From Hydrogenophaga sp. (GTDB lineage: Bacteria; Pseudomonadota; Gammaproteobacteria; Burkholderiales; Burkholderiaceae_C), in contig JAUXNG010000063.1 of the NCBI GenBank assembly GCA_030682835.1, positions 44,094 through 108,093 of the forward strand: a stretch of 64,000 nucleotides of DNA. The letters run 5' to 3'. The first letter of the stretch is position 1, and each line of letters opens with the position of its first letter. The notes under the pieces were generated by a model that worked only from the letters and a program-made list of their open reading frames with translations, did no database searches and was not told the DNA's origin. Positions 5,278 through 48,769 of this stretch are shown piece after piece. The position numbers and the translations under genes were made by a program.

Positions 5278-6798
5278 ATGCTGTACGCTGCACCCGGCAA
5301 CCCCGACGCCAAGATCGCCTACCAGTCCCGCTACAACAACTTCATTGGTGGCCAGTGGGTCGCACCGGTGAAGGGACAGTATTTCAACGTGATCTCCCCG
5401 GTGAACGGGCAGGTCTACACCCAGGTGGCGCGTTCCACGGCCGAAGACGTGGAGCTTGCACTGGATGCAGCCCACGCCGCCGCTGCCAGCTGGGGCAAGA
5501 CCTCGCCGACGGAGCGGTCCAACCTGCTGCTGAAGATTGCCGACCGCCTGGAGGCGAACCTGGAACTGCTGGCCTACGCCGAGACGGTGGACAACGGCAA
5601 GCCGATCCGCGAAACGCTCAACGCCGACATTCCGCTGGCCATTGACCACTTCCGCTATTTCGCGGGCTGCGTGCGGGCCGAGGAGGGCGGCATCAGCGAG
5701 ATCGACGGCGATACGGTGGCCTACCACTTCCAGGAGCCGCTGGGTGTGGTGGGTCAGATCATTCCCTGGAATTTCCCCATTCTCATGGCTGCCTGGAAGA
5801 TCCCGCCGGCGCTGGGCGCGGGCAACTGCATCGTGCTCAAGCCGGCCGAGTCGACCCCTGTCAGCATCCTGATCCTGATGGAGCTGATCGCCGACCTGCT
5901 GCCGCCGGGTGTGCTCAACATCGTCAACGGCTATGGCCGTGAGGCCGGCATGCCGCTGGCGACTTCCAAACGCATTGCCAAGATCGCGTTCACGGGCTCC
6001 ACCAGCACCGGCCGCGTGATCGCGCAGGCCGCGGCCAACAACCTGATTCCGGCCACGCTGGAACTGGGCGGCAAATCGCCCAACATCTTCTTCGCCGACA
6101 TCATGGACAAGGACGACGCGTTCCTGGACAAGGCGATTGAAGGCCTGGTGCTGTTCGCGTTCAACCAGGGTGAGGTATGCACCTGCCCCAGCCGTGCGCT
6201 GATCCAGGAGAGCATTTACGAACGGTTCATGGAGCGGGTGCTCAAGCGCGTGGCCGCCATCAAGATGGGCAGCCCGCTCGACACCGACACCATGATGGGC
6301 GCACAGGCCTCGAAAGAGCAGCTCTCGAAGATCCTGTCGTACCTGGAACTGGGCCGGGCTGAAGGCGCGCAGGTGCTCATTGGTGGCGAGCAGGCACAGA
6401 TGGGCAACGAGCTCAACGGTGGCTACTACGTGCAGCCGACGCTGTTCAAAGGCCACAACAAGATGCGCATCTTCCAGGAAGAAATCTTCGGCCCGGTGCT
6501 GGCGGTGACCACGTTCAAGGATGAGGCCGAGGCCCTGGAGATGGCCAACGACACCTTGTATGGCCTGGGCGCCGGCGTGTGGACGCGCAACGGCAACCTG
6601 GCCTACCGCATGGGCCGGGCCATCAAGGCCGGCCGGGTCTGGACCAACTGCTACCACGCCTACCCGGCCCACGCTGCATTCGGCGGGTACAAGGAGTCCG
6701 GCGTGGGTCGCGAGAACCACAAGGCGATGCTCGGTCACTACCAGCAGACCAAGAACCTGCTGGTGAGTTACAGCGAGAACAAGCTGGGCTTTTTCTGA
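5278..6798 (+). CDS. NAD-dependent aldehyde dehydrogenase (ExaC/AcoD-type)
   Basis: [36 protein letters not shown] start, [21 protein letters not shown] catalytic Cys region. Confidence 0.92.
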
Positions 6799-9086: not shown

Positions 9087-9824
9087 TTACAGCCCGGGCT
9101 TCTGCAGCGCCCGCAACACCTCGGTCTGGAAGTCCGGGCCTTCGGCTGCGGCCATGAAATCTTCGATGCGGCCGTCGAAGCGCACCGTGCCCTGGTGCAG
9201 CAGCATCAGGCGGTCGGCGGTCTTCACTTCTTCGATCAGGTGCGTGGCCCACAGCACGGCCAGGCCGCGTGACTGGCACAGCCCGCGCACGCTCTCCAGC
9301 AGCTGCTGGCGCGAGGCCGGGTCCAGGCCCACCGTGGCCTCGTCCATCAGCAGCACGCGCGGCTCGTGCAGCAGGGCCCGCACCAGCTCCACCTTGCGGC
9401 GCGTGCCGCCCGAGAGGCTGCGCACCGTGGCGCCGGCCTGGTCGGCCAGCCCCACTGCGCTCAGGCCGTCGCCGATTCGCTGGCGCGCCAGGCTGCGGGG
9501 CAGGCCGTGCAGGTCGGTGTGGAACAGCAGGTTGGCCATCACCGTGAGGTCGAGATCCAGGGCGCTCTGCTGGAACACCACGCCCAGCGCGGCCAGGGCG
9601 CGGCTTGGGTGCTGCTGCATGTCGTGCCCGGCCACCTGCACGCTGCCCTGATCCGGGCTGAACAGGCCGGTGAGCAATTGGAGCAGGGTCGATTTGCCGG
9701 CGCCGTTGGGGCCCAGCAGGGCGAGCATCTCGCCCGCGCGCAGCGACACGCTCACCCCCTTCAGCGCGGGCTTGCCCCCGTAGGCTTTGTGCAGGTCGCG
9801 GGCGTTGAGCAGGTCGTCGGTCAT
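9087..9824 (-). CDS. ABC transporter ATP-binding protein (PQQ-dependent alcohol dehydrogenase system type)
   Basis: Walker A GPNGAGKST, LSGGTRRKVELVRAL; located by other PQQ-ABC components. Confidence 0.8.
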   Translation of the reverse strand: MTDDLLNARDLHKAYGGKPALKGVSVSLRAGEMLALLGPNGAGKSTLLQLLTGLFSPDQGSVQVAGHDMQQHPSRALAALGVVFQQSALDLDLTVMANLLFHTDLHGLPRSLARQRIGDGLSAVGLADQAGATVRSLSGGTRRKVELVRALLHEPRVLLMDEATVGLDPASRQQLLESVRGLCQSRGLAVLWATHLIEEVKTADRLMLLHQGTVRFDGRIEDFMAAAEGPDFQTEVLRALQKPGL

Positions 9825-10990: not shown

Positions 10991-11005
10991 TGGCACCGTT
11001 TTTGC
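10991..11005 (+). promoter_or_regulatory. Sigma54 promoter TGGCACCGTTTTTGC(A)
   Basis: Near-consensus -24/-12 (TGGCAC-N5-TTGC), GG-N10-GC spacing; upstream of the PQQ-associated operon. Confidence 0.75.
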
Positions 11006-11079: not shown

Positions 11080-12069
11080 ATGGCCCATCGCGCCGCTTTC
11101 AAGCTTCGCCCTCTGTTCATCGCGCTCTGCGCCAGCGCCGCGGCCATGGCCTCGTCCGCCTGGGCACAGAGCCAGGTCTATGTGTCGAGCGAGAAGGACA
11201 ACAAGGTCTATGTGTTCAACGCGGCCGGTGAGCGCCAGGGCGCCATCGATGTGTGCAAGCGCCCACGCCACATGCTGTTCAGTGCCGACAGGCAATCGAT
11301 CTATGTGTGCTGCGGTGACAGCAACGAACTCGGCATCGTGGACGTGGCCAGCGGCAAGATGACGGGCACGATCCCGCTGGGCGACAGCCCCGAGATATTT
11401 GACCTCAGCCCCGACGGCAAGACCGTGTACGTGTCCATTGAGGACGACAACGTCATGGCTGCCTACGACCTCGCCACGAAGAAGCCGCTGTTTGAGGTGA
11501 AGACTGGTGGCGAGCCCGAGGGTGTGCTGGTGATGCCCGACGGGAAAACCGCCTACGTCACGTCCGAGGTCGCCAACGTGGTCCACCTGATCGACCTGAG
11601 CCAGAAAAAGGTGGTGAAAAACATCAAGGTGGGCAAGCGCCCGCGCCGCTTCGTGCTCGCTAACGATGGTGCCGAGCTCTGGGTGACCAACGAGCTGGAT
11701 GGCACGGTGAGCGTGGTCGACACGAAGACCAACGAGATGAAGCATTCGGTGAAGTTCGAGGTGAAGGGCATGCGCGCGGCAGACATCACGCCGGTGGGCA
11801 TGGTGCTGAGCCCCGACGGCAAGAGCATGTGGGTGGGCCTGGGCAAGGCCAACCATGTGGCGCAGGTCGACGTGGCCAGCCGCACGGTGAATAACCAGGT
11901 GCTGGTGGGGAAGCGCGCCTGGGGCCTGGCCTTCGGTGGCGACGGCAAGACGCTGTACGTGACCAATGGCATGTCCGATGACATGACGCTGGTCGATGCC
12001 ACCACGGCCAAGGCCATGCGCACAGTGCCGGCCGGCCGCGTGCCGCACACCGTGCTGGTCAAGAGATGA
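11080..12069 (+). CDS. PQQ-catabolism-associated YVTN beta-propeller protein
   Basis: Signal peptide then repeated D.KT.YV.....V..ID motifs; operon context. Confidence 0.82.
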   Translation: MAHRAAFKLRPLFIALCASAAAMASSAWAQSQVYVSSEKDNKVYVFNAAGERQGAIDVCKRPRHMLFSADRQSIYVCCGDSNELGIVDVASGKMTGTIPLGDSPEIFDLSPDGKTVYVSIEDDNVMAAYDLATKKPLFEVKTGGEPEGVLVMPDGKTAYVTSEVANVVHLIDLSQKKVVKNIKVGKRPRRFVLANDGAELWVTNELDGTVSVVDTKTNEMKHSVKFEVKGMRAADITPVGMVLSPDGKSMWVGLGKANHVAQVDVASRTVNNQVLVGKRAWGLAFGGDGKTLYVTNGMSDDMTLVDATTAKAMRTVPAGRVPHTVLVKR

Positions 12070-12245
12070 CACCCCCCCGTTGCTTGCTCGCTGCGCGTAG
12101 CCGCATCCCCCCACGGGGGGGCGCACCCAGCGGCCCGGCGAAGCCGGTTCCGCGGGAGCCCTGGGTCGGTCTGTGGCGCGCCTGCTGCCTGGCGCTCCGA
12201 TCGCCTCAGGTCGGGGCCAGACCGGCTCCGCGGGAGGCTTGGTCG
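12066..12245 (+). repeat. Dispersed stop-codon-proximal hairpin repeat (copy 1), with internal 78-bp tandem duplication
   Basis: C/G-run hairpin plus GGCCCGGCGAAGCCGGTTCCGCGGGAG; second unit ACCGGCTCCGCGGGAG 78 bp downstream. Confidence 0.7.
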
Positions 12246-13439
12246 TGTCTGTGGCGCGCTTGCGGTCTGGCGGTGCTGGGTGTGGCGGGTCTGCTCGCTT
12301 TCCCTGCGTTTGCCGCCACCAAGGTCACCGTCGCCGTGGTGTCGCTCGATGGCGATCCGCGCCATGCGGCGCGGCGCCTGGAGCGGGCCTATCCGGGCCA
12401 TCCCACCGGGCGCGCCATCGACGGCGTGAAGCTCGCCGCGGCGGATTCGGCCTTTGAACTGGATGCTGCCGGCATCCAGCTCGAGGTGCGTGATGTGGTG
12501 CTGCCCAACGCAGCCGGCCTCGCTCGCGCGCTGGCGGATCTGAAGGCCGCCAAGGTGCAGCATGTGGTGGCCGACCTGCCCGCGGCGGAATTGCTCGCAC
12601 TGGTGCAGGCCGCGCCCGCCGCGCTGGGCGGTGCGATGGTGTTCAACGCCGGGCTGGACGACGACGCGCTGCGCGGTGCCCAGTGCGCCGCGCACCTGCT
12701 GCACACCTACCCCAGCCGCGCCATGTTGAGCGATGCGCTGGCGCAGTACCTGGCCGCGCGCAACTGGCGCAAGGTGCTTGTGCTGCAGGGGCCACAGCCA
12801 GGGGATGCGCTGCAGGCGGATGCCTTCAGCCGCTCGGCCAAGCGCTACGGCATCAAGGCCACGTCGAGCAAAGCCTTCAAGCTCACCGGCGACCCGCGCG
12901 AGCGCGATTTTGGCAATGTGCGCCTGCTCACCAGCGCCGACCGCGAGCACGAGGTGGTGGCGGTCCTCGACAGCGATGGGGAGTTCGCCCGCACCGTCCC
13001 CTACGCCACCCAGCTGCCGCGCCCCGTCGTGGGCGCTGCCGGCCTGGTGGCCACGCCCTGGCATCCGCAGTGGGAACGCAACGGCGGCCCGCAGCTCAGC
13101 CGCCGCTTTGCCCGGGCCAGCCAGCGGCCCATGAGCGGGCACGACTGGGCCGCCTGGCTGGCGGGCCGCTCGGTGGCGGCGGTGCTCAGCGAACTGCCCA
13201 AGGCGCCAGTGGCGCAACAGCTCAAGGCCCTGCGCGGTGGTGCGGTGGGCGTTGATGGTTTCAAAGGCCCGCGCCTGGGCTTTCGCGCGTGGGACGGTCA
13301 GTTGCGCCAGCCCATCTTCCTGAGCCACGTGGACGGTGTGATCGCGCTGGCGCCGCTCGACGGGGTGTTGCATCCGAAGGAGGTGATGGACACACTCGGT
13401 GTGGACGAATCGGAAAGCACATGCAGACAGCGACCCTGA
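12066..13439 (+). CDS. ABC transporter substrate-binding protein, PQQ-dependent alcohol dehydrogenase system
   Basis: Periplasmic-binding-like fold sequence, contiguous with permease and propeller; N-terminus is within a repeat element, true start uncertain. Confidence 0.75.
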   Translation: MTPPRCLLAARSRIPPRGGAPSGPAKPVPREPWVGLWRACCLALRSPQVGARPAPREAWSCLWRACGLAVLGVAGLLAFPAFAATKVTVAVVSLDGDPRHAARRLERAYPGHPTGRAIDGVKLAAADSAFELDAAGIQLEVRDVVLPNAAGLARALADLKAAKVQHVVADLPAAELLALVQAAPAALGGAMVFNAGLDDDALRGAQCAAHLLHTYPSRAMLSDALAQYLAARNWRKVLVLQGPQPGDALQADAFSRSAKRYGIKATSSKAFKLTGDPRERDFGNVRLLTSADREHEVVAVLDSDGEFARTVPYATQLPRPVVGAAGLVATPWHPQWERNGGPQLSRRFARASQRPMSGHDWAAWLAGRSVAAVLSELPKAPVAQQLKALRGGAVGVDGFKGPRLGFRAWDGQLRQPIFLSHVDGVIALAPLDGVLHPKEVMDTLGVDESESTCRQRP

Positions 13440-14254
13440 GCACCTCTTACCCCGCGCCGGGCCGCGTGGCCCACCTGCTGCGCGCGCTGCGCGCCGTGGT
13501 GGGCCGTGAGATCGGGCGTTTCCTGCGCCAGCCCTCGCGCCTGGGTTCGGCGCTGGTGCGCCCGCTGCTGTGGTTCGTGGTGTTCTCGGCCGGGTTTCAC
13601 AACGTGTTCGGCGTGGCCATCGTGCCGCCCTACGAAACCTACATCGAATACAAGGCCTACATGGTGCCCGGCCTGCTGGGCATGGTGGCGCTGTTCAACG
13701 GCATGCAGAGTTCGCTCTCCATGGTCTACGACCGCGAGATGGGCGTGATGCGCCTGCTGCTCACCGCGCCGCTGGCGCGAGGCTGGCTGCTCGCCTTCAA
13801 GCTGCTGGCGGGCACCGCGCTCTCGGTGCTGCAGATGGCGGTGTTCCTGGCGATTGCCTGGGCCTTCGGGGTGGACACGCCCTGGGCCTACCTGCCCGGC
13901 CTGCTGCTGGCCATGGCCTGCGGCGCCACCATGCTGGCTGCGCTCGGGTTGATGCTCTCGGTGTATGTGCGCCAGCTGGAAAATTTCGCGGGCACCATGA
14001 ACTTCGTGATTTTTCCCATGTTCTTCATCAGCTCGGCCTTGTACCCACTGTGGAAGCTGGAAGAGTCAGGCGCCTGGTGGTTGTTGAAGCTGGCCGAGTT
14101 CAACCCCTTCACCCACGCGGTGGAGGCGATCCGTTTTGCTTCGGTGGGCCAGTTCAACCCCCTGGCCTGGGCGGTGGTGCTGCTGTGCGGCACGGCTTTC
14201 TTTGTGCTGGCGCTGCGCGGCTACGACCCGCAGCGCGGCTGGAGCAGAAGATGA
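13421..14254 (+). CDS. ABC-2 type transporter permease (PQQ-associated system)
   Basis: Six TM segments, YETYIEYKAYMVPGLLGMVALFNGMQSSLSMVYDREMGVMRLLLTAPL. Confidence 0.85.
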   Translation: MQTATLSTSYPAPGRVAHLLRALRAVVGREIGRFLRQPSRLGSALVRPLLWFVVFSAGFHNVFGVAIVPPYETYIEYKAYMVPGLLGMVALFNGMQSSLSMVYDREMGVMRLLLTAPLARGWLLAFKLLAGTALSVLQMAVFLAIAWAFGVDTPWAYLPGLLLAMACGATMLAALGLMLSVYVRQLENFAGTMNFVIFPMFFISSALYPLWKLEESGAWWLLKLAEFNPFTHAVEAIRFASVGQFNPLAWAVVLLCGTAFFVLALRGYDPQRGWSRR

Positions 14255-14390: not shown

Positions 14391-15191
14391 ATGCACCTGT
14401 TGACTTCTCGACGTGATCTTTTGCTGCTCGGTGCCGGCCTCGTGTGTGGACGATCCATTAAGGCCCAGGACGACCAGACCGGCGGTGACCCGCTGGGGTC
14501 CATGCAGTACCCGAGCCTGCGCGAGCAAACGATAGGCAAGGCCACGGCCCGGTTCTCGGACGCGGTGATTGTCCGGGGCCCCGCCTTTGCCGACGACGCC
14601 ATGAATGTGCCGCTGCTGGTCGACGCGCGCGGGCTCGACAAGTCGGGCGGGGGCGTGGCGCGCATCCGCGTGGCGGTGGACCGCAACCCGGTGCGCGCCG
14701 TGCTCGATTTCGAGCCCATGCGCGCGCTGCCCATGCTGGCGTTTCGTATCCGGCTGGAGCAGGCCTCACCGGTGCGGGCTTTTGTGCAGACGCGCGACGG
14801 CGAGTGGCATGTGGGCAGCACCTGGGTGCAGGCCGCGGGTGGTGGCTGCACCGTGCCGGGGGCGACGCGCGCCGACGGTTCGTGGAGCCGCACCCTGAAC
14901 CAGGTGCAGGCGCGTTTCTTCAACAACGTGCTGGAAGGCAGCCGGCGCCTGCGCGTGCGGGTGATGCACCCCATGGACACGGGGCTGGTGGCGGGCATCC
15001 CGGCCTTCTACATCGAAGACCTGCAGCTGGTGGATGGCGCGGGGCAGGTGTGGTGGCGCCTGGCCCTCCACGAGCCGGTGTCCGAGAACCCGCTCATCAC
15101 CTTCGAGCTGCCGCCGCAACCCGTCAGCGGACTGCGCCTGGTGGGCCGCGACAACAACGGCAACCGCATCGACGCCGAGGTGGTGGCATGA
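14391..15191 (+). CDS. Quinoprotein dehydrogenase-associated SoxYZ-like carrier protein
   Basis: SoxY-like and SoxZ-like domains in tandem (GGGCTVPGA; HPMDTGLVAGIPAFYIEDL); context. Confidence 0.8.
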   Translation: MHLLTSRRDLLLLGAGLVCGRSIKAQDDQTGGDPLGSMQYPSLREQTIGKATARFSDAVIVRGPAFADDAMNVPLLVDARGLDKSGGGVARIRVAVDRNPVRAVLDFEPMRALPMLAFRIRLEQASPVRAFVQTRDGEWHVGSTWVQAAGGGCTVPGATRADGSWSRTLNQVQARFFNNVLEGSRRLRVRVMHPMDTGLVAGIPAFYIEDLQLVDGAGQVWWRLALHEPVSENPLITFELPPQPVSGLRLVGRDNNGNRIDAEVVA

Positions 15192-15275
15192 GCCCCCACG
15201 CTCCACCGCTGCGCGGGTCGCTGCCCCCCAGGGGGGCTGATCCGGCTTGGGGCGGCCCGGCGTCGGATCGGAGGT
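15188..15275 (+). repeat. Dispersed stop-proximal repeat (copy 3), overlapping the N-terminus of the metallohydrolase ORF
   Basis: CCGCTGCGCGGGTCGCTGCCCCCCAGGGGGGCTGATCCGGC. Confidence 0.6.
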
Positions 15276-16279
15276 CCTTTCGGGTGAGGTGTCTGCTGGG
15301 AGGGCTGCTGGCCCTGGCGGCCAGTGGAGCGTTGGCTCAGTCCGTGCCGGTGCCGCCGTTCGTCTCGAAACCCGACATGGCGCGGCTGGACTACGACCTG
15401 CAGCCGCGCCAGATCGCGCCCGGCACCTGGGTGATCGAGGGCGCGGTGGCCGACTTCACGCGCGCCAACGGCTGCAACATCATCAACACCGCCTTCATCG
15501 CCACCGGCGCGGGTGTGGTGGTCATCAACACCGGCCCCTCGCGGCGTTACGGCGAGCAGCAGCGCCAGGCCATCGAACGCGTCACGCGCGAGCCGGTGCT
15601 GCATGTGTTCAACCTGAACCTGCACCCCGATTACTTCTTCGGTAACCAGGCCTGGGGCGACCGCCCCACGCAGGCGCTGACCGGCAGCATCGCCGGCATG
15701 CAGGCCGAAGGCCCGAGCTACGCCGACAACCTCTACCGGCTGTGCGGCGACTGGATGCAGGCCACCGAGTCCACCCCCGCGCGGCAGCCCATCGACCCCA
15801 ACACGCTGCCGCAGCCCTTGCGACTGGGCCAGCACGTGCTTGAACTGCACCGCCTGGACGGCCACACCGCCGATGACCTGGTGCTGCTGGACCGCAGGAC
15901 CGGCGTGCTGTTCGCCGGCGGCCTGGTCTTCGCCAACCGCGTGCCGACCACGCCACATGCCGACCTGCCGCGCTGGCTCGCCAGCCTGGACACGCTGGAG
16001 CGCTGGCTCGCCAATGGCACGGCGCGCCAGGTGGTGCCGAGTCACGGCCCGGTGCACAGCGGTACCGCCGGCGTGCAGCAGACGCGCGACTGGCTGCGCT
16101 GGCTGGGTGACACCTTGCAGGGCAGTGCCGAACGTGGGCTCGATCTGAACGAGGTGCTGCGGCTGCCCGTGCCCGATCGTTTTGCGCGCTGGGCCGCCCA
16201 GCCCGCCGAGCTGCACCGCAGCCTGACGCAGTGGTACCCCCTGCACGAGCAGCGCGTTCTCGCTGCGCCTGCGCGCTGA
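15188..16279 (+). CDS. Quinoprotein relay system zinc metallohydrolase (MBL fold) 1
   Basis: MBL-fold sequence (VVVINTGPSRRYGEQQR; NLHPDYFFGNQAW; DLVLLDRRTGVLFAGGLVF; PSHGPV); ATGA overlap with SoxYZ-like gene. Confidence 0.8.
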   Translation: MSPHAPPLRGSLPPRGADPAWGGPASDRRSFRVRCLLGGLLALAASGALAQSVPVPPFVSKPDMARLDYDLQPRQIAPGTWVIEGAVADFTRANGCNIINTAFIATGAGVVVINTGPSRRYGEQQRQAIERVTREPVLHVFNLNLHPDYFFGNQAWGDRPTQALTGSIAGMQAEGPSYADNLYRLCGDWMQATESTPARQPIDPNTLPQPLRLGQHVLELHRLDGHTADDLVLLDRRTGVLFAGGLVFANRVPTTPHADLPRWLASLDTLERWLANGTARQVVPSHGPVHSGTAGVQQTRDWLRWLGDTLQGSAERGLDLNEVLRLPVPDRFARWAAQPAELHRSLTQWYPLHEQRVLAAPAR

Positions 16280-16302
16280 GCCCGGCGCCATCCGCCGGGT
16301 TG

Positions 16303-16344
16303 TGACACCCGATCCGGGTGTTGACACATTTTTGAACAGTGTCA
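16303..16344. promoter_or_regulatory. Cluster of TGACAC/GTGTCA half-sites (candidate UAS)
   Basis: TGACAC at 16303 and 16322, GTGTCA at 16339; about 100-140 bp upstream of the sigma54 promoter. Confidence 0.4.
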
Positions 16345-16441
16345 CGGGGGGGACCCGGCGCCTGAACACCCATGTGCGCCATTCACCCGAAAAAGCGGCC
16401 TGCGCGCCTCGCCGGACGGCCTGAAATGTCACACAAAAAGC

Positions 16442-16456
16442 TGGCATAGATGTTGC
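16442..16456 (+). promoter_or_regulatory. Sigma54 promoter TGGCATAGATGTTGC
   Basis: GG-N10-GC upstream of the quinoprotein alcohol dehydrogenase. Confidence 0.7.
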
Positions 16457-16566: not shown

Positions 16567-18288
16567 GTGAAACGCACCCTCATCAGCCTATTGGTCATGG
16601 CCGCTACGGCCAGTGTCGGCGCCCAAGGCGTGACCGACGCCATGATCGCCAACGACGCCACCACCACGGACAACGTCCTGAGCTGGGGCCTGGGTACACA
16701 AGGCCAGCGCTACTCGCCGCTGACCGGGATCAATGGCCGCACGGTCAGCAAGCTGGTGCCCGTGTGGTCCATGTCGTTCGGGGGGGAGAAGCAGCGCGGC
16801 CAGCAGTCGCAGCCGCTGGTGCACAACGGCAAGATGTTCGTGACCGCTTCCTACTCGCGCATCTACGCGGTGGACACCAAGACCGGCCAGAAGCTCTGGA
16901 AGTACGAGCACCGCCTGCCCGAAGGCATCATGCCCTGCTGCGACGTGATCAACCGCGGCGCGGCGCTGTACGACAACCTCGTCATCTTCGGCACGCTGGA
17001 CGCGCAGCTGGTGGCGCTCGACCAGAACACCGGCAAGGTGGTGTGGCGCGAGAAGATCGACGACTACAGCGCGGGCTACAGCTACACCGCCGCTCCGCTG
17101 ATCGCCGAAGGCCTGCTCATCACCGGCCTGTCGGGCGGTGAATTCGGCGTGGTGGGCCGCGTGGAAGCGCGCGACCCCAAGACCGGCAAGATGGTGTGGG
17201 TGCGCCCGGTGGTGGAAGGCCACATGGGCTACAAGGATGGCAAGGAAAACGGCGTCACCGGCATGACCAACGCCTCGTGGCCGGGCGAGACCTGGAAGAC
17301 CGGTGGCTCGGCCCCATGGCTGGGCGGCACCTACGATCCCAAGACCCAGCTGGTGTATTTCGGCACCGGCAACCCCGGCCCGTGGAACAGCCATGTGCGC
17401 AAGGGTGACAACCTCTATTCAGCGTCCACCGTGGCTATCGACCCGAAAACCGGGCAGATCGTGTGGCACTACCAGAACACGCCCAACGACGGCTGGGACT
17501 ACGACGGTGTGAACGAGTTCGTCACCTTCGACATGGACGGCAAGCGCATGGGCGCCAAGGCCGACCGCAACGGCTTCTTCTATGTGAACGACGCGGCCAC
17601 CGGCAAGCTGGTCAACGCCTTCCCCTTCGTGAAGAAGGTGACCTGGGCCACCGGCATCGACCTCAAGACCGGTCGCCCCAACTTCGACGACGCCAACCGC
17701 CCCGGTGACCCCACGGCCGCCGGCGGCGACGGCACCAAGGGCAAGGCGGTGTTCTCCGCGCCGGGCTTCCTGGGCGGCAAGAACCAGATGCCCATGGCCT
17801 ACAGCCCCAAGACCGGCCTGTTCTATGTGCCCACCAACGAATGGGGCATGGAAATCTGGAACGAGCCCATCACCTACAAAAAGGGTGCGGCGTTCCTGGG
17901 CGCCGGCTTCACCATCAAGCCGCTGTTCGAGGACCACATCGGTTCGCTGCGCGCGATCGACCCCAAGACCGGCAAGGTGGCTTGGGAAGTGAAGAACAAC
18001 GCTCCCCTGTGGGGCGGTGTGCTGGTCGCAGGCGACCTGGTGTTCTGGGGCACGCCCGAGGGTTACCTGAAGGCGGCCGATGCCAAGTCTGGCAAGGAAG
18101 TGTGGAAGTTCCAGACCGGCTCGGGCGTGGTGGCACCTCCCATCACCTGGACCGAAGGCGGCGATCAGTACGTGAGCGTGGTCTCGGGCTGGGGCGGTGC
18201 GGTGCCGTTGTGGGGCGGCGAGGTGGCCAAGAAGGTCAACTTCCTGGAGCAGGGCGGTTCCGTGTGGACCTTCAAGCTGATGAAGTGA
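16567..18288 (+). CDS. PQQ-dependent alcohol dehydrogenase, predicted lanthanide-dependent (PedH/ExaF-like)
   Basis: Quinoprotein ADH fold, vicinal Cys pair [29 protein letters not shown], and W-D-Y-D-G-V-N at residues 310-316. Confidence 0.92.
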
Positions 18289-18445: not shown

Positions 18446-18769
18446 ATGCGTACTCTTCTGCTCCTGACTTCCAGCCTTCTCTTCGCCACGGGCGCTGCGC
18501 ACGCGGTGAACGAGGCCGCCGCGCTGGAACTGGCCAAGAACAACGGCTGCCTGTCCTGCCACTCGGCCAAGGAAAAGGTGGTCGGCCCGGCCTTCAGCAC
18601 CATCGCCGAGAAATACAAGGACGACAAGGACGCCGTCGCTTCGCTGGCGCAGTCCATCCAGTACGGCTCCAAGGGCAAATGGGGCCGCGTGCCCATGCCT
18701 GCCCACCCCGGCATGAGCGCCGGCGACATCAAGACCGTTGCGCAGTGGGTGATGACCATCAAGCCATGA
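18446..18769 (+). CDS. Small c-type cytochrome (c551/c552-like)
   Basis: Signal peptide, CLSCH heme motif, VPMPAHPGMS distal Met. Confidence 0.88.
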   Translation: MRTLLLLTSSLLFATGAAHAVNEAAALELAKNNGCLSCHSAKEKVVGPAFSTIAEKYKDDKDAVASLAQSIQYGSKGKWGRVPMPAHPGMSAGDIKTVAQWVMTIKP

Positions 18770-21609: not shown

Positions 21610-22366
21610 CCTGGTGGGGGGATGGGACGGTTTGACGTGTCGGGAGGGGTGCGGCGAGCGTGTCGGCCACCAGGGCATCGGCAAAGCGGTCGAGCCGCAT
21701 CAGCTGCAGGCCGAGCAGAATGTTGCCGGCCAGCCCGGTGACGGTGGTGAGCAGCGCGATGCCCAGGCCGCCCGTGAGGTTCTTGAGCAGTTGCGACGAC
21801 TGGCTGGGGTCGAAGCTGTTCATCTGGCCCAGCTCGAGCGCGAGGATGGAAAACCCGATCACCTTGCCCAGCAGTCCCAGCTTGAGCTGGATGCCGTTGA
21901 GCCACCAGGCCATTTCGTGCGGGCCGTGGGCGCGCTCGCCCAGAACCTGCAGCCAGATGCTGTGGTCGGCACCGGGCCGGGCGCAACCCTCGTGGTATTC
22001 GGTGCTCCAGCTGGGCGGCGCGGCGGCAGCAGCTGGCCCAGCGAGTTGCTCGTCGAGGCGCACGCGCTGCTGGCCCAGCACCCAGGCGCGACGACCGGCC
22101 CAGGCCGAGCAGCCCGTGAACAGCAGCACGATGGTGACGGTCAGACCGGTCGGGTCGGCGTTCACCAGCCGGTGCCAGGCGCCGGCCTGCCAGAGCAGCC
22201 ACGCGCCGAACAGCAGCAGGCCCATATAGGCCAGCCAGAGCAGGAACAGGCCGTGCGGCTGGCGCTCCAGCGCGAGCGCCGAATGGCCGGCGCCCGGGAT
22301 GCGGCTCACCAGTGCGGCGCCCAGCATGCGGTGCTGGGGGTTGCTGGCGTTGGCAACGGGTGTCAT
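21575..22366 (-). CDS. MotA/TolQ/ExbB-like proton channel protein
   Basis: Three or four hydrophobic segments with GGLGIALLTTVTGLAGNILLGLQLMRL, typical of the ExbB/TolQ TM2-TM3 region; overlaps pqqE stop. Confidence 0.65.
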   Translation of the reverse strand: MTPVANASNPQHRMLGAALVSRIPGAGHSALALERQPHGLFLLWLAYMGLLLFGAWLLWQAGAWHRLVNADPTGLTVTIVLLFTGCSAWAGRRAWVLGQQRVRLDEQLAGPAAAAAPPSWSTEYHEGCARPGADHSIWLQVLGERAHGPHEMAWWLNGIQLKLGLLGKVIGFSILALELGQMNSFDPSQSSQLLKNLTGGLGIALLTTVTGLAGNILLGLQLMRLDRFADALVADTLAAPLPTRQTVPSPHQDAAHGDRPRGS

Positions 22367-23523
22367 GCGCCGGGCATCGGGTGCAGCGCACGCGACTCGG
22401 CGTCGCTGCGGAACACGATCGGAATGCTGCGCCGCGTTGGCGCCTGCTTCACCAGTTGCACCACCATTTCATGGTGCGGCGACTTGCTGCACACCGGGTC
22501 GGCTTCGGTTGGGTCGCCGGTGATCATGAAAGCCTGGCAGCGGCAGCCCCCAAAGTCTTTGTGGCGTTCGTCGCAGCTGCGGCAGGGCGCCTTCATCCAG
22601 CTGTCACCGCGGAACGCATTGAAGGCGGTGCTGCGCTGCCAGATGTCGGCAATCGACGTGTCCTTCACGTTGGGCAGCTGCAGGCCGGGCAGGTCGCGTG
22701 CGTTGTGGCAGGGCATGGCCAGGCCATCGGGGGCGATGGAAAGGAACACCGAGCCCCAGCCGTTCATGCAGGCCTTGGGGCGCTCCTCGAAATAGTCGGG
22801 CACCACGAACAGCACACGGGTTTTCGGGCCGCTGGTGCCCTCCTGTTCGGCGCGGAAGCGGTTGACTTCCGCCTCGGCTTGCTGCAATTCGTCGCGGGTG
22901 GGCATGAGGTGGTCGCGGTTGATCCAGGCCCAGCCGTAGTACTGCGTGTTGGCCAGTTCCAGGTATTCGGCTTCCAGCGCCACGGCCATCTCGATGATCT
23001 TGCGCACATGCGGCAGGTTGTGGCGGTGCAGCACGCAGTTCATCACCATCGGCCAGTCGTGCTGCTTGATCAGCCGGGCCACGCGCTGCTTCAGCTCGAA
23101 GGTCCTGGTGTGGCTGAGGAAGTCGTTCAGCTCTCTGGTGGAATCCTGGAAAGAAAGCTGCACATGGTCCAGCCCGGCGTCCTTGAGTCTTTGCGCACGC
23201 ACGGGCGTGAGACCCACGCCGGAGGTGATGAGGTTGGTGTAGTAGCCCAGGCGGTGCGCTTCCTGCACCAGTTCTTCCAGGTCGTCGCGCAGCAGCGGCT
23301 CGCCGCCGGAAAAGCCCAGTTGCGCAGCGCCCAGTTTGCGCGCCTGCTGCATCACGTCGACCCACTGCGCGGTGCTCAGCTCGTCGTTCACCCGCGCGTG
23401 CTGCGTCGGGTTGTAGCAGAACACGCAGTGCAGCGGACACTTGTAGGTGAGCTCGGCCAGCAACCACAGGGGCTGGCCGACCGCAGGCGCGTTTCTGGCG
23501 GTGGGCTCAGTCGATCCAGCCAC
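22363..23523 (-). CDS. pqqE: PQQ biosynthesis radical SAM protein PqqE
   Basis: CPLHCVFCYNP radical-SAM motif, GGEPLLRDDLEEL, C-terminal CRSCDERHKDFGGCRCQAF. Confidence 0.95.
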   Translation of the reverse strand: MAGSTEPTARNAPAVGQPLWLLAELTYKCPLHCVFCYNPTQHARVNDELSTAQWVDVMQQARKLGAAQLGFSGGEPLLRDDLEELVQEAHRLGYYTNLITSGVGLTPVRAQRLKDAGLDHVQLSFQDSTRELNDFLSHTRTFELKQRVARLIKQHDWPMVMNCVLHRHNLPHVRKIIEMAVALEAEYLELANTQYYGWAWINRDHLMPTRDELQQAEAEVNRFRAEQEGTSGPKTRVLFVVPDYFEERPKACMNGWGSVFLSIAPDGLAMPCHNARDLPGLQLPNVKDTSIADIWQRSTAFNAFRGDSWMKAPCRSCDERHKDFGGCRCQAFMITGDPTEADPVCSKSPHHEMVVQLVKQAPTRRSIPIVFRSDAESRALHPMPGA

Positions 23524-23770
23524 GGTGCTGACCTTCTTCGAGGAGTGCTTCGACTTGCGGCTGTATGCCCTGCGCATGGAACGCCTGCTCCAGCTCGGCC
23601 ACGATGGCCTCCAGGCTGCGCACGCCGTCGCAGCGCTTCAGGATTTCGGCCGCACTGTCGTTCAGCTGCACCATGCCTTCCGGGTACAGCAGCACCCAGC
23701 GCGTCTGGGCTTCCTCATACTGCAGTCGGAAGCGGCGCGAGAGTTTCGGATGGGTCGGCAGCGTGCTCAC
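23507..23770 (-). CDS. pqqD: PQQ biosynthesis peptide chaperone PqqD
   Basis: [44 protein letters not shown] (GTG start). Confidence 0.92.
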
Positions 23771-24507
23771 TGGCTGGCTTTCTCGATGGCGTCGAGCATG
23801 GTCCACAGGATGTCCAACTTGAACTTCAGGATGTCCAGCGCGCGGTGCTGCGCCTCGCGGGTGGTGAAGTGGTCCAGCGTGACGCGCAGGCCGTGCTCCA
23901 CGTCGCGGCTGGCCAGGGGGATGCGGCTGCGGAAGTAGGCCAGGCCGCTGGCCTCTATCCAGGGGTAGTGCGTGGGCCAGGTGGCCAGGCGGTCCTTGTG
24001 GATCTGCGGCGCGAACATCTCCGTGAGCGAGGAGCACACGGCTTCCTGCCAAGGCGCCTTGGCCGCGAAATTCACATACGCGTCGCAGGCGAAGCGCACG
24101 GCGGGCACCACGCCTTCGAGCGACCAGAGCGATTCCCGGGAGATGCCCACGGCTTCGCCCAGGCGCGTCCAGGCCTCGATGCCGCCGGCGGCCGAACCTT
24201 CATGGTCGCCGTGGTCGCCGTGGCCGTCGTGGTCCAGGATGCGTTCGACCCACAGCCGGCGGTGCGCCCGGTCGGGCATGTTGGCGAGGATGGCGGCGTC
24301 CTTGCGGGGAATGCAGATCTGGTAGTAGAAGCGGTTGGCCACCCAGCAGCGCAGCTCGTCGGGCGTGCAGCCACCGCTGTTCATGCGTACATTGAACGGG
24401 TGGTGGATGTGGTAGCTGCGGCCCTGCTCGCGCAGCTGCGCTTCAAACTCGGCAGGAGACCAGGGCGCCAGACCAGCGTAGGGGCGGGGGATGTGGGCGA
24501 GTTCCAT
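23767..24507 (-). CDS. pqqC: Pyrroloquinoline-quinone synthase PqqC
   Basis: [39 protein letters not shown]. Confidence 0.95.
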
Positions 24508-24511
24508 GTGT

Positions 24512-25429
24512 TCAGAATTCGATGTCCATGCCGTCGTGTGCCACGTCGATGCCGTGGCGCGTGAGCAGCGCGCGCTCGGGGCCGTCTTCCACCAGCATGG
24601 GATTGGTGTTGTTGATGTGGATGAGCACCTTGCGCACCGTGGGGGGCAGACGGTCGAGCTGTTCGATCATGCCGCCGGGGCCGCTCTGCGGGAGGTGGCC
24701 CATGTCGAGCGCGGCCTTTTTTGAGAGGCCCTGACGCTGCATCTCGTCGTCGGTCCAGAAGGTGCCGTCCACCAGCACCACGCTGCAGCCGGCCATGAGG
24801 TCCAGCAGATCGGGTGTGACCGAGGCCAGGCCTGGCGCGTAAAACACACGGGCGCCGGTCGCCGGGTTCTGCAGCAGCAGCCCGATGTTGTCGCCCGGGC
24901 GGGGGTTGCCGCGAAAGGGCGAGTAAGGCGGAGGTTTGGACGACAGCGCCACCGTCTGCACCTGCAGGCCGGGCAGGCCGGGCACATCGGCTGTGCGCCC
25001 GTCAATGCCCAGTTCATGCACCGCCACGCCGCAGTAGTGCGACAGGATGCCGGTGATCGGGAAACCGGTCGAAATATCGGAAAAGACCTCGGGCGTGGCC
25101 AGCAAGGGCAGCGGTGTCTGCCGCTCGCGCAGCATCAGCAGGCCGGTGACGTGGTCGATCTGTGCGTCCATGAGCAACACGGCCGCAATGCCGCTGTCGC
25201 GCACAGCGCGGGCCGGCTGCAGCTCGGGGTTGTCACGGATCTGCGTGAGGATGTCGGGCGAGGCGTTCACCAGCAGCCAGTCGACGCCGTCAACGCTGAC
25301 GGCAATGGACGACTGCGTGCGTGCGCGGGCGATCACCGTGCCCTGTCGCACGCCGGTGCAGTTGGCGCAGTTGCAGTTCCACTGCGGAAAACCGCCGCCG
25401 GCCGATGAGCCGAGAACCCGGATGCGCAT
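24512..25429 (-). CDS. pqqB: PQQ biosynthesis protein PqqB
   Basis: [24 protein letters not shown]. Confidence 0.96.
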
Positions 25430-25509: not shown

Positions 25510-25584
25510 TCAGCGGTTGGCGATGTACATGGTGATCTCAAAACCAAAACGCAGGTCGGTGAAAGCGGGGGTGGTCCATTGCAT
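25510..25584 (-). CDS. pqqA: PQQ precursor peptide PqqA (24 aa)
   Basis: [24 protein letters not shown] with conserved E-x3-Y. Confidence 0.96.
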
Positions 25585-25657: not shown

Positions 25658-26776
25658 ATGAACAGCAATAACAATGCCAAGCGCGGGTCCCGGCCGCCGG
25701 CCCCTGCGTCGGCTCGTGGCCAGGCGGCCCGCGGCTGGCCGGCGCCCACCTTTCTGCCCGTGGGCGGGCGACACCGCATGGCCTACCGGCTGGTCGGTGC
25801 TGCGAGCGGAGAGCCCTGGCTGCTGCTGCACGGTGGCCCCGGCGGTGCCTGCCATCCGGGCCTGTTGCAGCCGCTCGACCTCAGCCGCCAGCGCGCCATT
25901 GCGCCGGACCAGCGGGGCTGCGGCGCCAGCCGGCCCCGGGGGTGCACACAGGGAAATCACACGGCTGCACTGGTGGCCGACCTGGAGGCTCTGCGTCAGC
26001 ACCTGGGCCTGGAGCGCTGGAGCCTGCTGGCGGGCTCCTGGGGGACCGTGGTAGCGCTGGCGTACGCGCGTCAGCACCCGAAACGCGTGCAGCGGGTGGT
26101 GTTGCGGGCCGCGTTTGCGCTGAGCCGCCGCGAGATCGCTGGCCTGGTGATGCCGTCGCGCCGTGTGCAGGGCCGGCTCGGCAGTGAAGCGCTCTGGCCG
26201 TCCGCGGCCGGTGCTGCTGTGTCAGCGGTGCTGGCCCGGCTGAGACACCTGCTTCAAAGTGGAACAACCGGTGTTGCAGCCGTGCGCGTGGCGCGGCGCT
26301 GGCAATTGCTGGAATCGGCGGGCGCTGCCGCGGGCATGCGCCGCGCCCTGCGCCACCTGGCTGCCACGCCAGGCAGCGGCCCTGCGCTCGCCGCGGCCCG
26401 GCGGGAGTGGACCGCATTGCAGCGGCGCCAGCGCCGGGCCGTGGCCCGAGCCCGAAGGCCTGCCGTCCACCGCGCCGACCGGGCCGCCCTGCGGGCCTGC
26501 CGCATCCAGTGCCATTACCTGCTGCACCGCGGTTTTGTGCCACCCGGCGGGCTGGACCACGCGGTGCGCGTGCTGGCCCGTGCCGGGGTACCGGTGGACT
26601 GGGTGCACGGCCGCTTCGACGCGATCTGCCCGCCACGCAACAGCCGGCGCTGGGCGGCAGTGGGCGCGCGCGAGCGGGCGCTGGTCACCCTGACCGAGCC
26701 CTTCAGTGGCCACCTGGGCCACGAGCCCGCCATGCTGGCGGCGCTGCGCCAGCGCGTGCGCGGGGCGCGATCATGA
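25658..26776 (+). CDS. Alpha/beta hydrolase, proline iminopeptidase-like
   Basis: [19 protein letters not shown] nucleophile elbow, [16 protein letters not shown]. Confidence 0.75.
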
Positions 26777-27822
26777 GTGGCTGGCGCCGCGGCCTCCTGG
26801 CATGCGCATTCGTCGTGGGCAGCCTCGGGTCCGCCGTTGCGAGCGAACCCTTCCACCAACCCGCAGGCTGCGAGGCGGTGGCGGAGCTGCCCTGGCAGGC
26901 AATGGCGCCCGGCATGTGGGTCTGGGCACCGGAAACCCCCGCCGAGGTATCGGTGGCCAACGGTGGACATGTGGCGCCCACCACGCTCGTGCTGGGCGGC
27001 TCAAAGGCGCTGGTGATCGACCCGGGCCCGAGCCACGCTCATGCCTGGCGGGTGCGGGAATCGGTGCGCTGCCGCTTCCGGGCGCGTGTGCGCTGGGTGG
27101 TGAACACCCACGCCCATGCCGAAAACGTGCTGGGCAATTCGGCCTTTGCCGAGGACGTGGCTCAGGGTGCCGTCGAGATCTTGGCCACCGCGGCCACGCG
27201 CGAGGCCATGGCGTTGCGCTGCCCGGCCTGCCTGGCCAGCCTGCGCGCGCGTGTGGGCGATGCCGCCATGGCGGGCACGCGCATCGTGCTGCCCGGGCGC
27301 ACGCTGCTGGCGGGTGACGAATTGCGCGTGGGCGAGCACCGGCTGAAGGTGCTGCCGGTGGAGCAGGGGCACACCGAGGGCGACCTGGTGCTGTGGGAGG
27401 CGGACCGGGGGCTGCTGTGGGCCGGCGGCCTGGTGTACGAAGGCCGTGTGCCGGAACTGGCGCAGGGCCGGCTGGACGACTGGCTGGCGGCCTTGCAGCG
27501 GCTGCAGGCGCTGCGGCCCGCGGTGGTGGTATCGACCGGGGTGTCGCGTGCCGGCCCATCGGGCCTGCCACCCCCAGCCCTGCTGGCGACACTGGCCTAC
27601 CTGCTCGACCTGCGCGCCGCGGTGTTGCAGGCCATGGACGCGGGTCGGCAGCCGCAGGAACCCGGGGTGGCGGCCCTGCCCGCCTACCGCAGCTGGGTGG
27701 GCTACGCCGAGCGGCACGATTTCAATGTGCAGCGGGCCTGGCGCGAACTGGAGCCGGTGTGGATGGACCAGGGTATGCCTCCACCGCCTGCCGACGGCTC
27801 AGCTCAGGACGTCGGGCGGTAG
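26773..27822 (+). CDS. Quinoprotein relay system zinc metallohydrolase (MBL fold) 2
   Basis: MBL motifs NTHAHAENVLGNS, EQGHTEGDLVLWEADRGLLWAGGLVYEGRVP; PQQ context. Confidence 0.75.
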   Translation: MSGWRRGLLACAFVVGSLGSAVASEPFHQPAGCEAVAELPWQAMAPGMWVWAPETPAEVSVANGGHVAPTTLVLGGSKALVIDPGPSHAHAWRVRESVRCRFRARVRWVVNTHAHAENVLGNSAFAEDVAQGAVEILATAATREAMALRCPACLASLRARVGDAAMAGTRIVLPGRTLLAGDELRVGEHRLKVLPVEQGHTEGDLVLWEADRGLLWAGGLVYEGRVPELAQGRLDDWLAALQRLQALRPAVVVSTGVSRAGPSGLPPPALLATLAYLLDLRAAVLQAMDAGRQPQEPGVAALPAYRSWVGYAERHDFNVQRAWRELEPVWMDQGMPPPPADGSAQDVGR

Positions 27823-29883
27823 CAGGTCTTTCTTGCGGTAGATGGTGTTGCGCGAGACGCCCAGCGCCTTGGCCGCGGCCGACACATTGCCCTTGTGCAG
27901 GCGCAGCATCTGCGCCATGGCGCTGAGCGCCACGTCGTGCAGGCGCTGCCCGTCGGTGCAGGGCTCGAAGGGCGGCGGGGGGGCACCCATGTCGGTGGCG
28001 GCGGGCAGCACCGGTGTGGGCGCCACGTACTGGGGGGGCAGCCGTGCGGGGGCTTCCGGGTCCAGCTCTTCCAGAAAATCGTCGGGCAGATGCGCGAACT
28101 CGATGGCGCCCTGGCAGCCCACCATCACCACCGCCGTGCGCAGCAGGTTGTGCAGCTGGCGGAAGTTGCCGGGCCAGTGGTAGCGCTTGAACACATCCAT
28201 GACCTGCGGCGAGATGGTCACCTGCGCGCCGTTCTCGCACAGCGCTTTCAGGATCTTCTGCACCACCAGATCGAAGTCGGTGCGCTCGCGCAGCGCGGGC
28301 AGGCGCACCACCAGACCGTTGAGCCGGTAGTAGAGGTCTTCGCGAAAATCGCCGCGCGCGATCATGTCCTTGAGGTTCTTGTGCGTGGCGCTGATCACGG
28401 CCACGTCCACCTCGACCTCCTTGCCCGCACCGAGCGGGCTCACCTTGCGCTCCTGCAGCACGCGCAGCAGCCGCGCCTGCAGGTGCTTGGGCATGTCGCC
28501 GATCTCGTCGAGAAACAGCGTGCCGCCGTGGGCCTGCAGGATCTTGCCGATCGAGCCCTTCTTGCGTGCGCCCGTGAAAGCACCCTCCTCATAGCCGAAC
28601 AGCTCGGACTCGATCAGGGTGTCGGGTATGGATGCGCAGTTCACGGACACGAAAGGCTGGCCGGCACGGGGCGAATCACCGTGGATGGCCTGTGCCAGCA
28701 GGTCCTTGCCGGTGCCGGTCTCGCCCAGCACCATGACCGGAATGTCGCGCCCCGACACCATGCGCAGCTTGTGGATGACGGACGACACCTGCGGGTCACC
28801 CGTGTCCAGGTAGTGCAGTGTCGAGAACTGCATCTTGCGGCCGGTCTGCTTCAAGGGGGCCGGTGCCGTCGCATCGGCTGTTTCGGGCGGGCGTGGGCGC
28901 ACGTCACTGGCTTCGGCCGGCGAGCGCTCACTCCCCGTGCCCATGCCCTGCGAGCCCGCCCAGGCGTTGGCCGGTTTGACCTTCACCCGGCACCACACCG
29001 ACACGCCGTTGTGCATCACAAGCTGCTTGGGCGTGGGCAGGGCACCACTGAAGCGCTCGAACAGGGCCGACACCGGCATGCCGAACAGCGACGAGAAGGT
29101 GTGGGCTTTCAGCGCGCTGAACGGCAGGCCGAACTGGAACTGCGCGCTGCGGTTGGCCGACAGGAAACGCCCCTCGGTGGAGAAGACCGCAATGCCCTCG
29201 ACCAGCGTGCCCAGGAACTCGGAGCGGCTGTGGAAATGGATGCGGATGGCCTTCGGAAAGATGTCGGCGAACATGTGGTTCTCGATCATCTGGGCCGACA
29301 TGCGCACGAGGGCCAGCGTGTGCTGGTGGAAGCTGCGGTGGTCACCGGTGACATCCAGCGCCCCGATCACCTGGCCGTAGGGGTCGATGATGGGCGCCGC
29401 AGAACAGGTGAGGAACTTGTTGGCCTCCAGATAGTGTTGGTTGCCGTGCACGGTGAGGGCTTCCTGTTCGGTGAGCGCCGTGCCCACCGCGTTGGTGCCC
29501 TTGCTGCGCTCCGACCAGTCCATGCCGGGCATGAGCGCGACCTGCGCAGCTTTTTCCAGAAAGTCGGTGTCACCCAGCGAGTGCAGCACCAGGCCTCTGG
29601 CCGTGCTCAGCACCACCAGGCTGTGGGTGTTGGCGATCTGGTCGTACAGCGTTTCCATCACCGGCGCCGCATGCTGGAACAGGAAACGGTTCTCGTCCAG
29701 CGCGTCGGCCATTTCGCCGCGCAGGGGGCTGGAGAAATCGGGCGCGTCTTCGGTCGACAGGCCGAAGGCGCGGGAACGGCGGTGGGACTCGTGGATGAGC
29801 GAGCTGGCGTCGGACACGGTGGGGTCCGAGGCCTGTGGTGGAACGCGCTGCACGTGGGGCTGCGTACCCATGGCTGCACTCAT
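27799..29883 (-). CDS. Sigma54-dependent transcriptional activator (GAF-AAA+-Fis, AcoR-like)
   Basis: GETGTGKD, GAFTGA, FLDEIGDMP, C-terminal Fis HTH VSAAAKALGVSRNTIYRK. Confidence 0.93.
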   Translation of the reverse strand: MSAAMGTQPHVQRVPPQASDPTVSDASSLIHESHRRSRAFGLSTEDAPDFSSPLRGEMADALDENRFLFQHAAPVMETLYDQIANTHSLVVLSTARGLVLHSLGDTDFLEKAAQVALMPGMDWSERSKGTNAVGTALTEQEALTVHGNQHYLEANKFLTCSAAPIIDPYGQVIGALDVTGDHRSFHQHTLALVRMSAQMIENHMFADIFPKAIRIHFHSRSEFLGTLVEGIAVFSTEGRFLSANRSAQFQFGLPFSALKAHTFSSLFGMPVSALFERFSGALPTPKQLVMHNGVSVWCRVKVKPANAWAGSQGMGTGSERSPAEASDVRPRPPETADATAPAPLKQTGRKMQFSTLHYLDTGDPQVSSVIHKLRMVSGRDIPVMVLGETGTGKDLLAQAIHGDSPRAGQPFVSVNCASIPDTLIESELFGYEEGAFTGARKKGSIGKILQAHGGTLFLDEIGDMPKHLQARLLRVLQERKVSPLGAGKEVEVDVAVISATHKNLKDMIARGDFREDLYYRLNGLVVRLPALRERTDFDLVVQKILKALCENGAQVTISPQVMDVFKRYHWPGNFRQLHNLLRTAVVMVGCQGAIEFAHLPDDFLEELDPEAPARLPPQYVAPTPVLPAATDMGAPPPPFEPCTDGQRLHDVALSAMAQMLRLHKGNVSAAAKALGVSRNTIYRKKDLLPPDVLS

Positions 29884-30238
29884 GTTGTCTCCTGGATCGG
29901 TGATCAGGCCGTCCCAGCAGGCCGGGTCCCATGGCCCTTGCAGGGTGACCTCGCTCGGCTGCTGTTCCGCTGGGCTGTCGTGCTCTGGTGTCATGCGATT
30001 GTCTTCATATCTGTGCCAGGGTTCAACAATGGTTATCCCGGTGTTGGCTGGGTCGGGGCCGTGTCATGGCCTGTGCCAAGCAAATAGCCCGCCATGTGCG
30101 GTGCCGTCTGCGCCGCGGGTGCGAGCGCGTGACACAGCCCGGCGGCCGAGTGTGGCAACTGCGCCAGAGTGGAACAGTGCAGCGGACATTCACGACGCGA
30201 CAGGGGGAGCACGCACGCCCCAGGCCCTTTTCCGCCCG

Positions 30239-32904: not shown

Positions 32905-33009
32905 GGGCTGTCTCGTGGTGGGTGGCTGGAGGCTTGTCAGCCCAGTCACTGCATCAAGTATGCCAAGCCAACAGTGTTTCATTTTGAGAATTTCGACGCC
33001 GCGGACATT

Positions 33010-33048
33010 CCGACTAGGGATAACCCTGCGAACCAAGTGGGCAGTCGG
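33010..33048. promoter_or_regulatory. Nested dyad CCGACT-AGGG..CCCT-...-AGTCGG in divergent promoter region
   Basis: Read directly between 32904 (minus) and 33130 (plus). Confidence 0.35.
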
Positions 33049-33129
33049 CCAGAACAATGGCGATGCAATTTGTTTCATAGGCATGGCACTTCATATCCAC
33101 GGTGCCGCTACCCACCAGGAGACCCTCTC

Positions 33130-33606
33130 ATGCAGAAAGTCCTGCACATCAATCCGGACAAATGCACCGGCTGTTTGCAGTGCGAAATGGCCTGTTCCTT
33201 CGAGAACTACGGCACATACGCCACGTCCAAATCGCGCATCAAGGTGTTCGACTTCCACCACACCGGCAAGAAGGTGCCCTACACCTGCACGCAGTGCGAC
33301 GAAGCCTGGTGCCTGCATGCCTGCCCGGTGGAAGCCATCACGGTCGACAAGGTGACGGGTGCGAAAGTGGTGAACGAAACCACCTGCGTGGGTTGCAAGG
33401 TCTGCACCATCGCCTGCCCGTTCGGCACCATCAACTACGTGCAGGAAACCGGCAAGGTTCAGAAGTGCGACCTGTGCGGCGGCGACCCCGCCTGCGTGGA
33501 AGCCTGCCCGACCACGGCCATCACGTTCGTGGATGCCAACTGGACCGGCATCGACAAGATGAAGCAGTGGGCCGACAAGCTGGGCAACCAGCCCAGCGCC
33601 GTCTGA
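33130..33606 (+). CDS. aorA: 4Fe-4S ferredoxin subunit of tungsten aldehyde oxidoreductase
   Basis: Cys motifs CTGCLQCEMAC, CTQCDEAWCLHAC, CVGCKVCTIAC, CDLCGGDPACVEAC; precedes AOR. Confidence 0.8.
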   Translation: MQKVLHINPDKCTGCLQCEMACSFENYGTYATSKSRIKVFDFHHTGKKVPYTCTQCDEAWCLHACPVEAITVDKVTGAKVVNETTCVGCKVCTIACPFGTINYVQETGKVQKCDLCGGDPACVEACPTTAITFVDANWTGIDKMKQWADKLGNQPSAV

Positions 33607-33633
33607 TCCCCCACCCAACGAAGGAGCACACAC

Positions 33634-35481: not shown

Positions 35482-35503
35482 GTTGCCAGAAGACACGCAG
35501 GTG

Positions 35504-35561
35504 ATTGGGGGTCGGATCACCGACTGGAGCGAAGCGCAAGGCGTGTGCTCTGACCCCCAAT
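35504..35561. repeat. MITE/REP-like imperfect inverted repeat ATTGGGGGTCGGATCAC...GTGTGCTCTGACCCCCAAT
   Basis: 10-bp perfect outer stem (ATTGGGGGTC/GACCCCCAAT) within the aor operon. Confidence 0.65.
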
Positions 35562-35621
35562 GACCGGAAGCAACGAAGTAGCGGTCTCCTGAGGCCGCTT
35601 TCTTTTTTTGGAGAACACGTC

Positions 35622-48714: not shown

Positions 48715-48769
48715 GTTGTTATGTCCTCGGACCGCGTTCCCCTCCCGGAACGGAACGCGGTCACATGCC

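Follow-up and report, generated by a model that had tools for sequence, protein, structure and literature searches.

The four metal ligands of the lanthanide-dependent alcohol dehydrogenase PedH have been assigned by residue number and role in PMC11845868, according to which MxaF is devoid of the extra Asp. The importer PedA1A2BC of Pseudomonas putida, including its PedA2 component, has been described in PMC6839425; growth via PedH at low La depends on it, whereas growth via PedE is unaffected. Homologues of PP_2677 and PP_2678 are conserved together with lanthanide-dependent alcohol dehydrogenases and absent from P. aeruginosa, and the Pseudomonas cluster is under the control of AgmR and PedS2/PedR2 (PMC12997753). 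For exaA of Azospirillum brasilense, control by sigma-54 together with a LuxR-type regulator is cited in PMC6115532. A search of open-licence papers for a lanthanide alcohol dehydrogenase in Hydrogenophaga retrieved only passing terms in a review on metal tolerance, and one for PedH in Comamonadaceae retrieved nothing.

The window investigated here comprises 64,000 nucleotides of a contig from a draft genome of Hydrogenophaga sp., and its features are compiled in Table 1. The alcohol dehydrogenase (ADH) gene begins with the GTG at 16567, which is preceded by a Shine-Dalgarno-like AGGAG, and the N-terminus of the protein resembles a signal peptide (both from direct reading of the sequence). The protein scores 749.5 bits with TIGR03075 (cut-off 480), and its phmmer match to PedH (6zcw; E = 1.4e-240) is far beyond chance. 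The nearest solved structures by bit score are PedH (803), ExaA (1flg; 680) and XoxF (about 350), with alignment identities of 64.9% to PedH, 59.7% to ExaA and 45.0% and 43.7% to XoxF. The codons TGG GAC TAC GAC GGT GTG encode residues 310–315 (W D Y D G V), and the column of D313 is occupied by Asp325 in PedH, Asp301 in XoxF of strain SolV and Asp320 in XoxF1 of M. extorquens, but by Ser in ExaA. All four metal ligands of PedH (E199/N281/D323/D325) are retained in the alignment as E192/N269/D311/D313. Directly before the Glu ligand, ExaA has Asp, whereas the ADH, PedH and XoxF all have Gly. The string WDYDGVNE is identical in the ADH and in XoxF of strain SolV; the short motif alone thus cannot separate PedH from XoxF, which requires the whole protein.

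Table 1. Features of the 64,000-nucleotide window that belong to, or are discussed together with, the ADH locus
Feature	Position	Strand	Basis or remark
Aldehyde dehydrogenase, possible next step	5278..6798	+	Pfam Aldedh
PedB-like ATP-binding subunit	9087..9824	-	TIGR03864, above cut-off
Sigma-54-type site TGGCACCGTTTTTGC	10991..11005	+	89 bp upstream of PedA2-like gene
PedA2-like YVTN beta-propeller protein	11080..12069	+	TIGR03866, above cut-off
PedA1-like periplasmic binding protein, lanthanide importer	12066..13439	+	TIGR03863, above cut-off
PedC-like permease	13421..14254	+	TIGR03861, above cut-off
SoxYZ-like quinoprotein-associated carrier (PP_2677 type)	14391..15191	+	TIGR04557, above cut-off
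SoxH-like zinc metallohydrolase (PP_2678 type)	15188..16279	+	TIGR04558, above cut-off
TGTGACAC...GTGTCAC inverted elements, possible upstream activator site	16301..16345	.	pattern
Sigma-54-type -24/-12 site TGGCATAGATGTTGC	16442..16456	+	125 bp upstream of ADH start
PedH/ExaF-like PQQ alcohol dehydrogenase	16567..18288	+	GTG start, 573 aa
W-D-Y-D-G-V motif, catalytic D311 and lanthanide-ligand D313	17494..17511	+	reading frame, alignment
c-type cytochrome, likely electron acceptor	18446..18769	+	Pfam Cytochrom_C
pqqB, pqqC, pqqD, pqqE	22363..25429	-	TIGR02108, TIGR02111, TIGR03859, TIGR02109, above cut-offs
pqqA	25510..25584	-	
Sigma-54-type site TGGCATTGTTATTGC	25665..25679	-	95 bp upstream of pqqA
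AcoR-like sigma-54 activator (GAF, PAS, sigma-54 interaction, Fis-type HTH), candidate regulator	27799..29994	-	domains
4Fe-4S protein, AorABC-like cluster	33130..33606	+	
AFOR-family large subunit, AorABC-like cluster	33634..35481	+	
FAD/NAD reductase, AorABC-like cluster	35622..36974	+	

The comparison with relatives from family genomes revealed a partition at the D313 column: Asp is present in all 48 further PedH-like proteins (67–92% identity) and Ser in all 21 ExaA-like proteins (50–53% identity). One PedH-like relative (L066) has kept the extra Asp, but its Asn ligand is replaced by Gln. The named relatives with 90–93% identity to the ADH are mostly Hydrogenophaga. In the maximum-likelihood tree of PedH-like, ExaA-like and XoxF proteins, which was computed rapidly, contains some long branches and was used for its shallower branching, the ADH is located in a clade of 50 sequences including PedH (SH-aLRT 93) and outside of the ExaA-like and XoxF clades, both of which have a support of 100. 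It belongs to a wider ethanol-dehydrogenase branch that also holds ExaA. The preliminary description had read W-D-Y-D with Asp311 and Asp313 in the frame from 16567 and proposed a lanthanide-dependent PedH/ExaF-like enzyme. Reading frame and alignment confirm the motif, and its second Asp falls into the lanthanide-ligand column defined by PedH and the two XoxF proteins; the grouping with PedH apart from ExaA-like proteins and XoxF agrees with the proposal, as do the alignment, the conserved ligands and the gene neighborhood. The ADH is best regarded as a predicted member of the known PedH/ExaF-type lanthanide enzymes.

The neighborhood of the gene points in the same direction. The window encodes homologues of all four PedA1A2BC subunits, each above its curated cut-off, and the importer genes are found near the ADH in 40–44 of the 54 long named relative loci, mostly in the same order. 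Within the family, PedC is present in 43 of the 56 genomes with a PedH-like gene vs 13 of the 195 without (p = 3e-25, a value that overstates the number of independent events, as do all co-occurrence p values given here, since the genomes are related), and in only one of the nine genomes that have an ExaA-like gene alone. The corresponding numbers for the genus are 29/30 and 3/30. Thirteen family genomes possess a PedH-like gene without PedC, so the coupling of importer and enzyme is not strict. The cytochrome c gene is present in 48 of the 54 relative loci, the aldehyde dehydrogenase gene in the vicinity of the ADH in 13.

Several further genes lie among these units. A TctC-type periplasmic binding protein (9821–10888, - strand) is located between the PedB-like and PedA2-like genes and recurs in 35 of 54 relative loci. 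A second SoxH-like metallohydrolase (26767–27822, + strand) scores below the cut-off of either quinoprotein relay family. The closest family of the TonB-dependent receptor at 6946–9036 (+ strand) is PqqU, with a score of about half the cut-off, and the receptor could serve the uptake of PQQ or of a lanthanide chelate.

The absence of a calcium-type partner from the window, already stated in the preliminary description, is confirmed and applies to the draft genome as a whole. A protein search of its 3.6 Mb (87% complete) retrieved the ADH gene alone as a PQQ alcohol dehydrogenase, and the sole other match of the draft genome to TIGR03075 has 31.7 bits, far below the cut-off. Among the 251 family genomes sampled, a PedH-like gene is present in 56, an ExaA-like gene in 22 and the two together in 13, and a repeat search with an ExaA-like query retrieved the same 22 genomes; an ExaA-like match was found in only two of the 60 genus genomes. 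The ExaA-type partner is accordingly missing in 43 of the 56 family genomes with a PedH-like gene, and its lack is not exceptional but the usual state among the PedH-like carriers of the family sample. Other family genomes do encode PQQ enzymes of more remote kinship, among them quinohemoprotein types with WDYT, and long frames matching at 38–41% identity exist in genus genomes, so that calcium-type quinoproteins are not absent from all of these organisms.

Taken together, the product of 16567–18288 is very probably a PedH/ExaF-type alcohol dehydrogenase that resides in the periplasm, depends on PQQ and a lanthanide and functions as outlined below, its lanthanide dependence being predicted from homology. 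An unlikely alternative, albeit the most serious one, is a metal-promiscuous enzyme that binds lanthanides but is physiologically active with Ca as well, which would make the organism independent of rare earths. According to the review PMC11845868, PedH from cultures lacking rare earths may also coordinate Ca, so that some Ca activity of the ADH is possible, and a genome with the ADH as its sole PQQ alcohol dehydrogenase would profit from such flexibility. However, PedH showed no activity when assayed under the same Ca conditions as PedE (PMC5487730), the ADH has the same active-site ligands as PedH, and the enzyme and the lanthanide importer tend to be present together. It is highly improbable that the ADH represents an ExaA/PedE-type calcium enzyme in which Asp arose at the second position without consequence for the metal. 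The identity to ExaA and the shared ethanol-dehydrogenase branch would fit this scenario, but Asp in all 49 PedH-like and Ser in all 21 ExaA-like proteins, the separate clades and the full set of importer and maturation genes adjoining the ADH speak against it; a divergent ExaA was rejected on the basis of the Ser/Asp split and the tree. A XoxF-type methanol dehydrogenase for growth on methanol, prompted by the exact WDYDGVNE string of XoxF SolV, is the least credible reading and was rejected in view of an overall identity of 44–45% to XoxF vs 65% to PedH and of the position outside of the fully supported XoxF clade.

For the favored PedH/ExaF-type dehydrogenase, the following sequence of events is proposed. 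The PedA1A2BC-like importer would bring the lanthanide into the cell, pqqABCDE would provide the PQQ cofactor, and the SoxYZ-like and SoxH-like proteins may aid maturation or protection. The presumed bound metal is a light lanthanide, with E192, N269, D311, D313 and PQQ as its ligands. It would polarize PQQ, which in turn would accept hydride from a primary alcohol, the predicted substrate class, and thereby release the aldehyde. A c-type cytochrome, probably the one encoded at 18446, would then receive the electrons. The organism thus probably needs rare earths to oxidize alcohols by the PedH-like route, which would add Hydrogenophaga to the small set of non-methylotrophs that are predicted to be rare-earth-dependent.

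The regulation of the locus can be approached via its promoter patterns. The 64 kb window contains only three matches to the strict -24/-12 pattern TGGCA[CT]N5TTGC (+10991, +16442, -25679), each upstream of a pathway unit. Of 56 relative loci, 54 have the pattern upstream of the ADH; it also precedes pqqA in all 24 loci where this gene was found and the beta-propeller gene in 27 of 48, while 41 sites lie elsewhere in the 1.2 Mb. A looser sigma-54 pattern precedes the ADH in 64 of 66 relatives (1.1 expected from mononucleotide shuffles), and TGTGACA/GTGTCAC elements are located farther upstream in 48 of 66 (3.9 expected). The AcoR-like activator is encoded in 29 of the 30 genus genomes with the PedH-like enzyme vs two of the 30 without. 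The -24/-12 sites, which are known here as sequence patterns, and the co-occurrence of the activator led us to propose that the AcoR-like protein drives the three units from sigma-54 promoters. The transporter operon, the enzyme and the pqq operon accordingly appear to be co-induced, with the activator as the putative link to the promoters. This possible sigma-54 regulon is the part of the finding that may be new. In a broader perspective, we slightly favor a scenario in which Hydrogenophaga and related Comamonadaceae harbor a lanthanide-only sigma-54 regulon, whose AcoR-like activator would induce importer, enzyme and PQQ synthesis jointly on alcohol or aldehyde, usually in the absence of an ExaA-type calcium partner, so that the lanthanide switch of Pseudomonas and methylotrophs would be unneeded.

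The window also contains an AorABC-like tungsten-type aldehyde oxidoreductase cluster (33130–36974, + strand). Divergent from its AorA-like gene lies the gene of an AcoR-like protein (31777–33084, - strand) with GAF, PAS and HTH_8 domains but without a sigma-54 interaction domain. The cluster is located on the same contig about 17–37 kb from the PedH-like gene in many genus genomes, and its association with this gene is weak (25/30 vs 17/30, p = 0.047). In the present window, it is not preceded by a strict sigma-54 site. The idea that the lanthanide ADH and the tungsten-type oxidoreductase are functionally linked was not adopted: the two are neighbors, but their co-occurrence in the genus is weak and a common promoter pattern was not found. 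At the margin of the window, an ABC transporter (9–2364, + strand) composed of a permease, an ATPase and a PBP_like_2 binding protein resembles tungstate (Tup) systems; a specificity for tungstate is a guess. The translations further allowed us to recognize an apparent nitrous-oxide reductase (nos) gene cluster at 44801–50698 (- strand).

Among the known systems, the ADH is most reminiscent of PedH from P. putida KT2440 (PDB 6zcw), with which it shares the four metal ligands, the Cys-Cys pair and 65% identity. The likeness extends to the P. putida PedH locus with its PedA1A2BC-type importer and the neighboring SoxYZ-like and SoxH-like genes; the differences are the lack of a PedE partner in the draft genome and the pqq operon located beside the cluster. 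According to the literature (PMC11845868), ExaF of Methylorubrum extorquens AM1 is a lanthanide-dependent ethanol dehydrogenase of the same type. The calcium ethanol dehydrogenase ExaA/PedE (1flg) has the fold family and the catalytic Asp in common with the ADH, but harbors Ser at the Asp313 column. XoxF (4mae, 6oc5) shares the four metal ligands and the Gly before the Glu ligand and differs by its separate clade. With respect to regulation, the PQQ alcohol dehydrogenase of A. brasilense, ExaA, is under sigma-54 control too, yet with a LuxR-type regulator where the present locus has an AcoR-like candidate. The Pseudomonas system relies on AgmR and PedS2/PedR2 in place of the putative sigma-54/AcoR-type control. 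With its conserved sites, sigma-54 control is a specific alternative to the lanthanide switch PedS2/PedR2 that can be put to the test.
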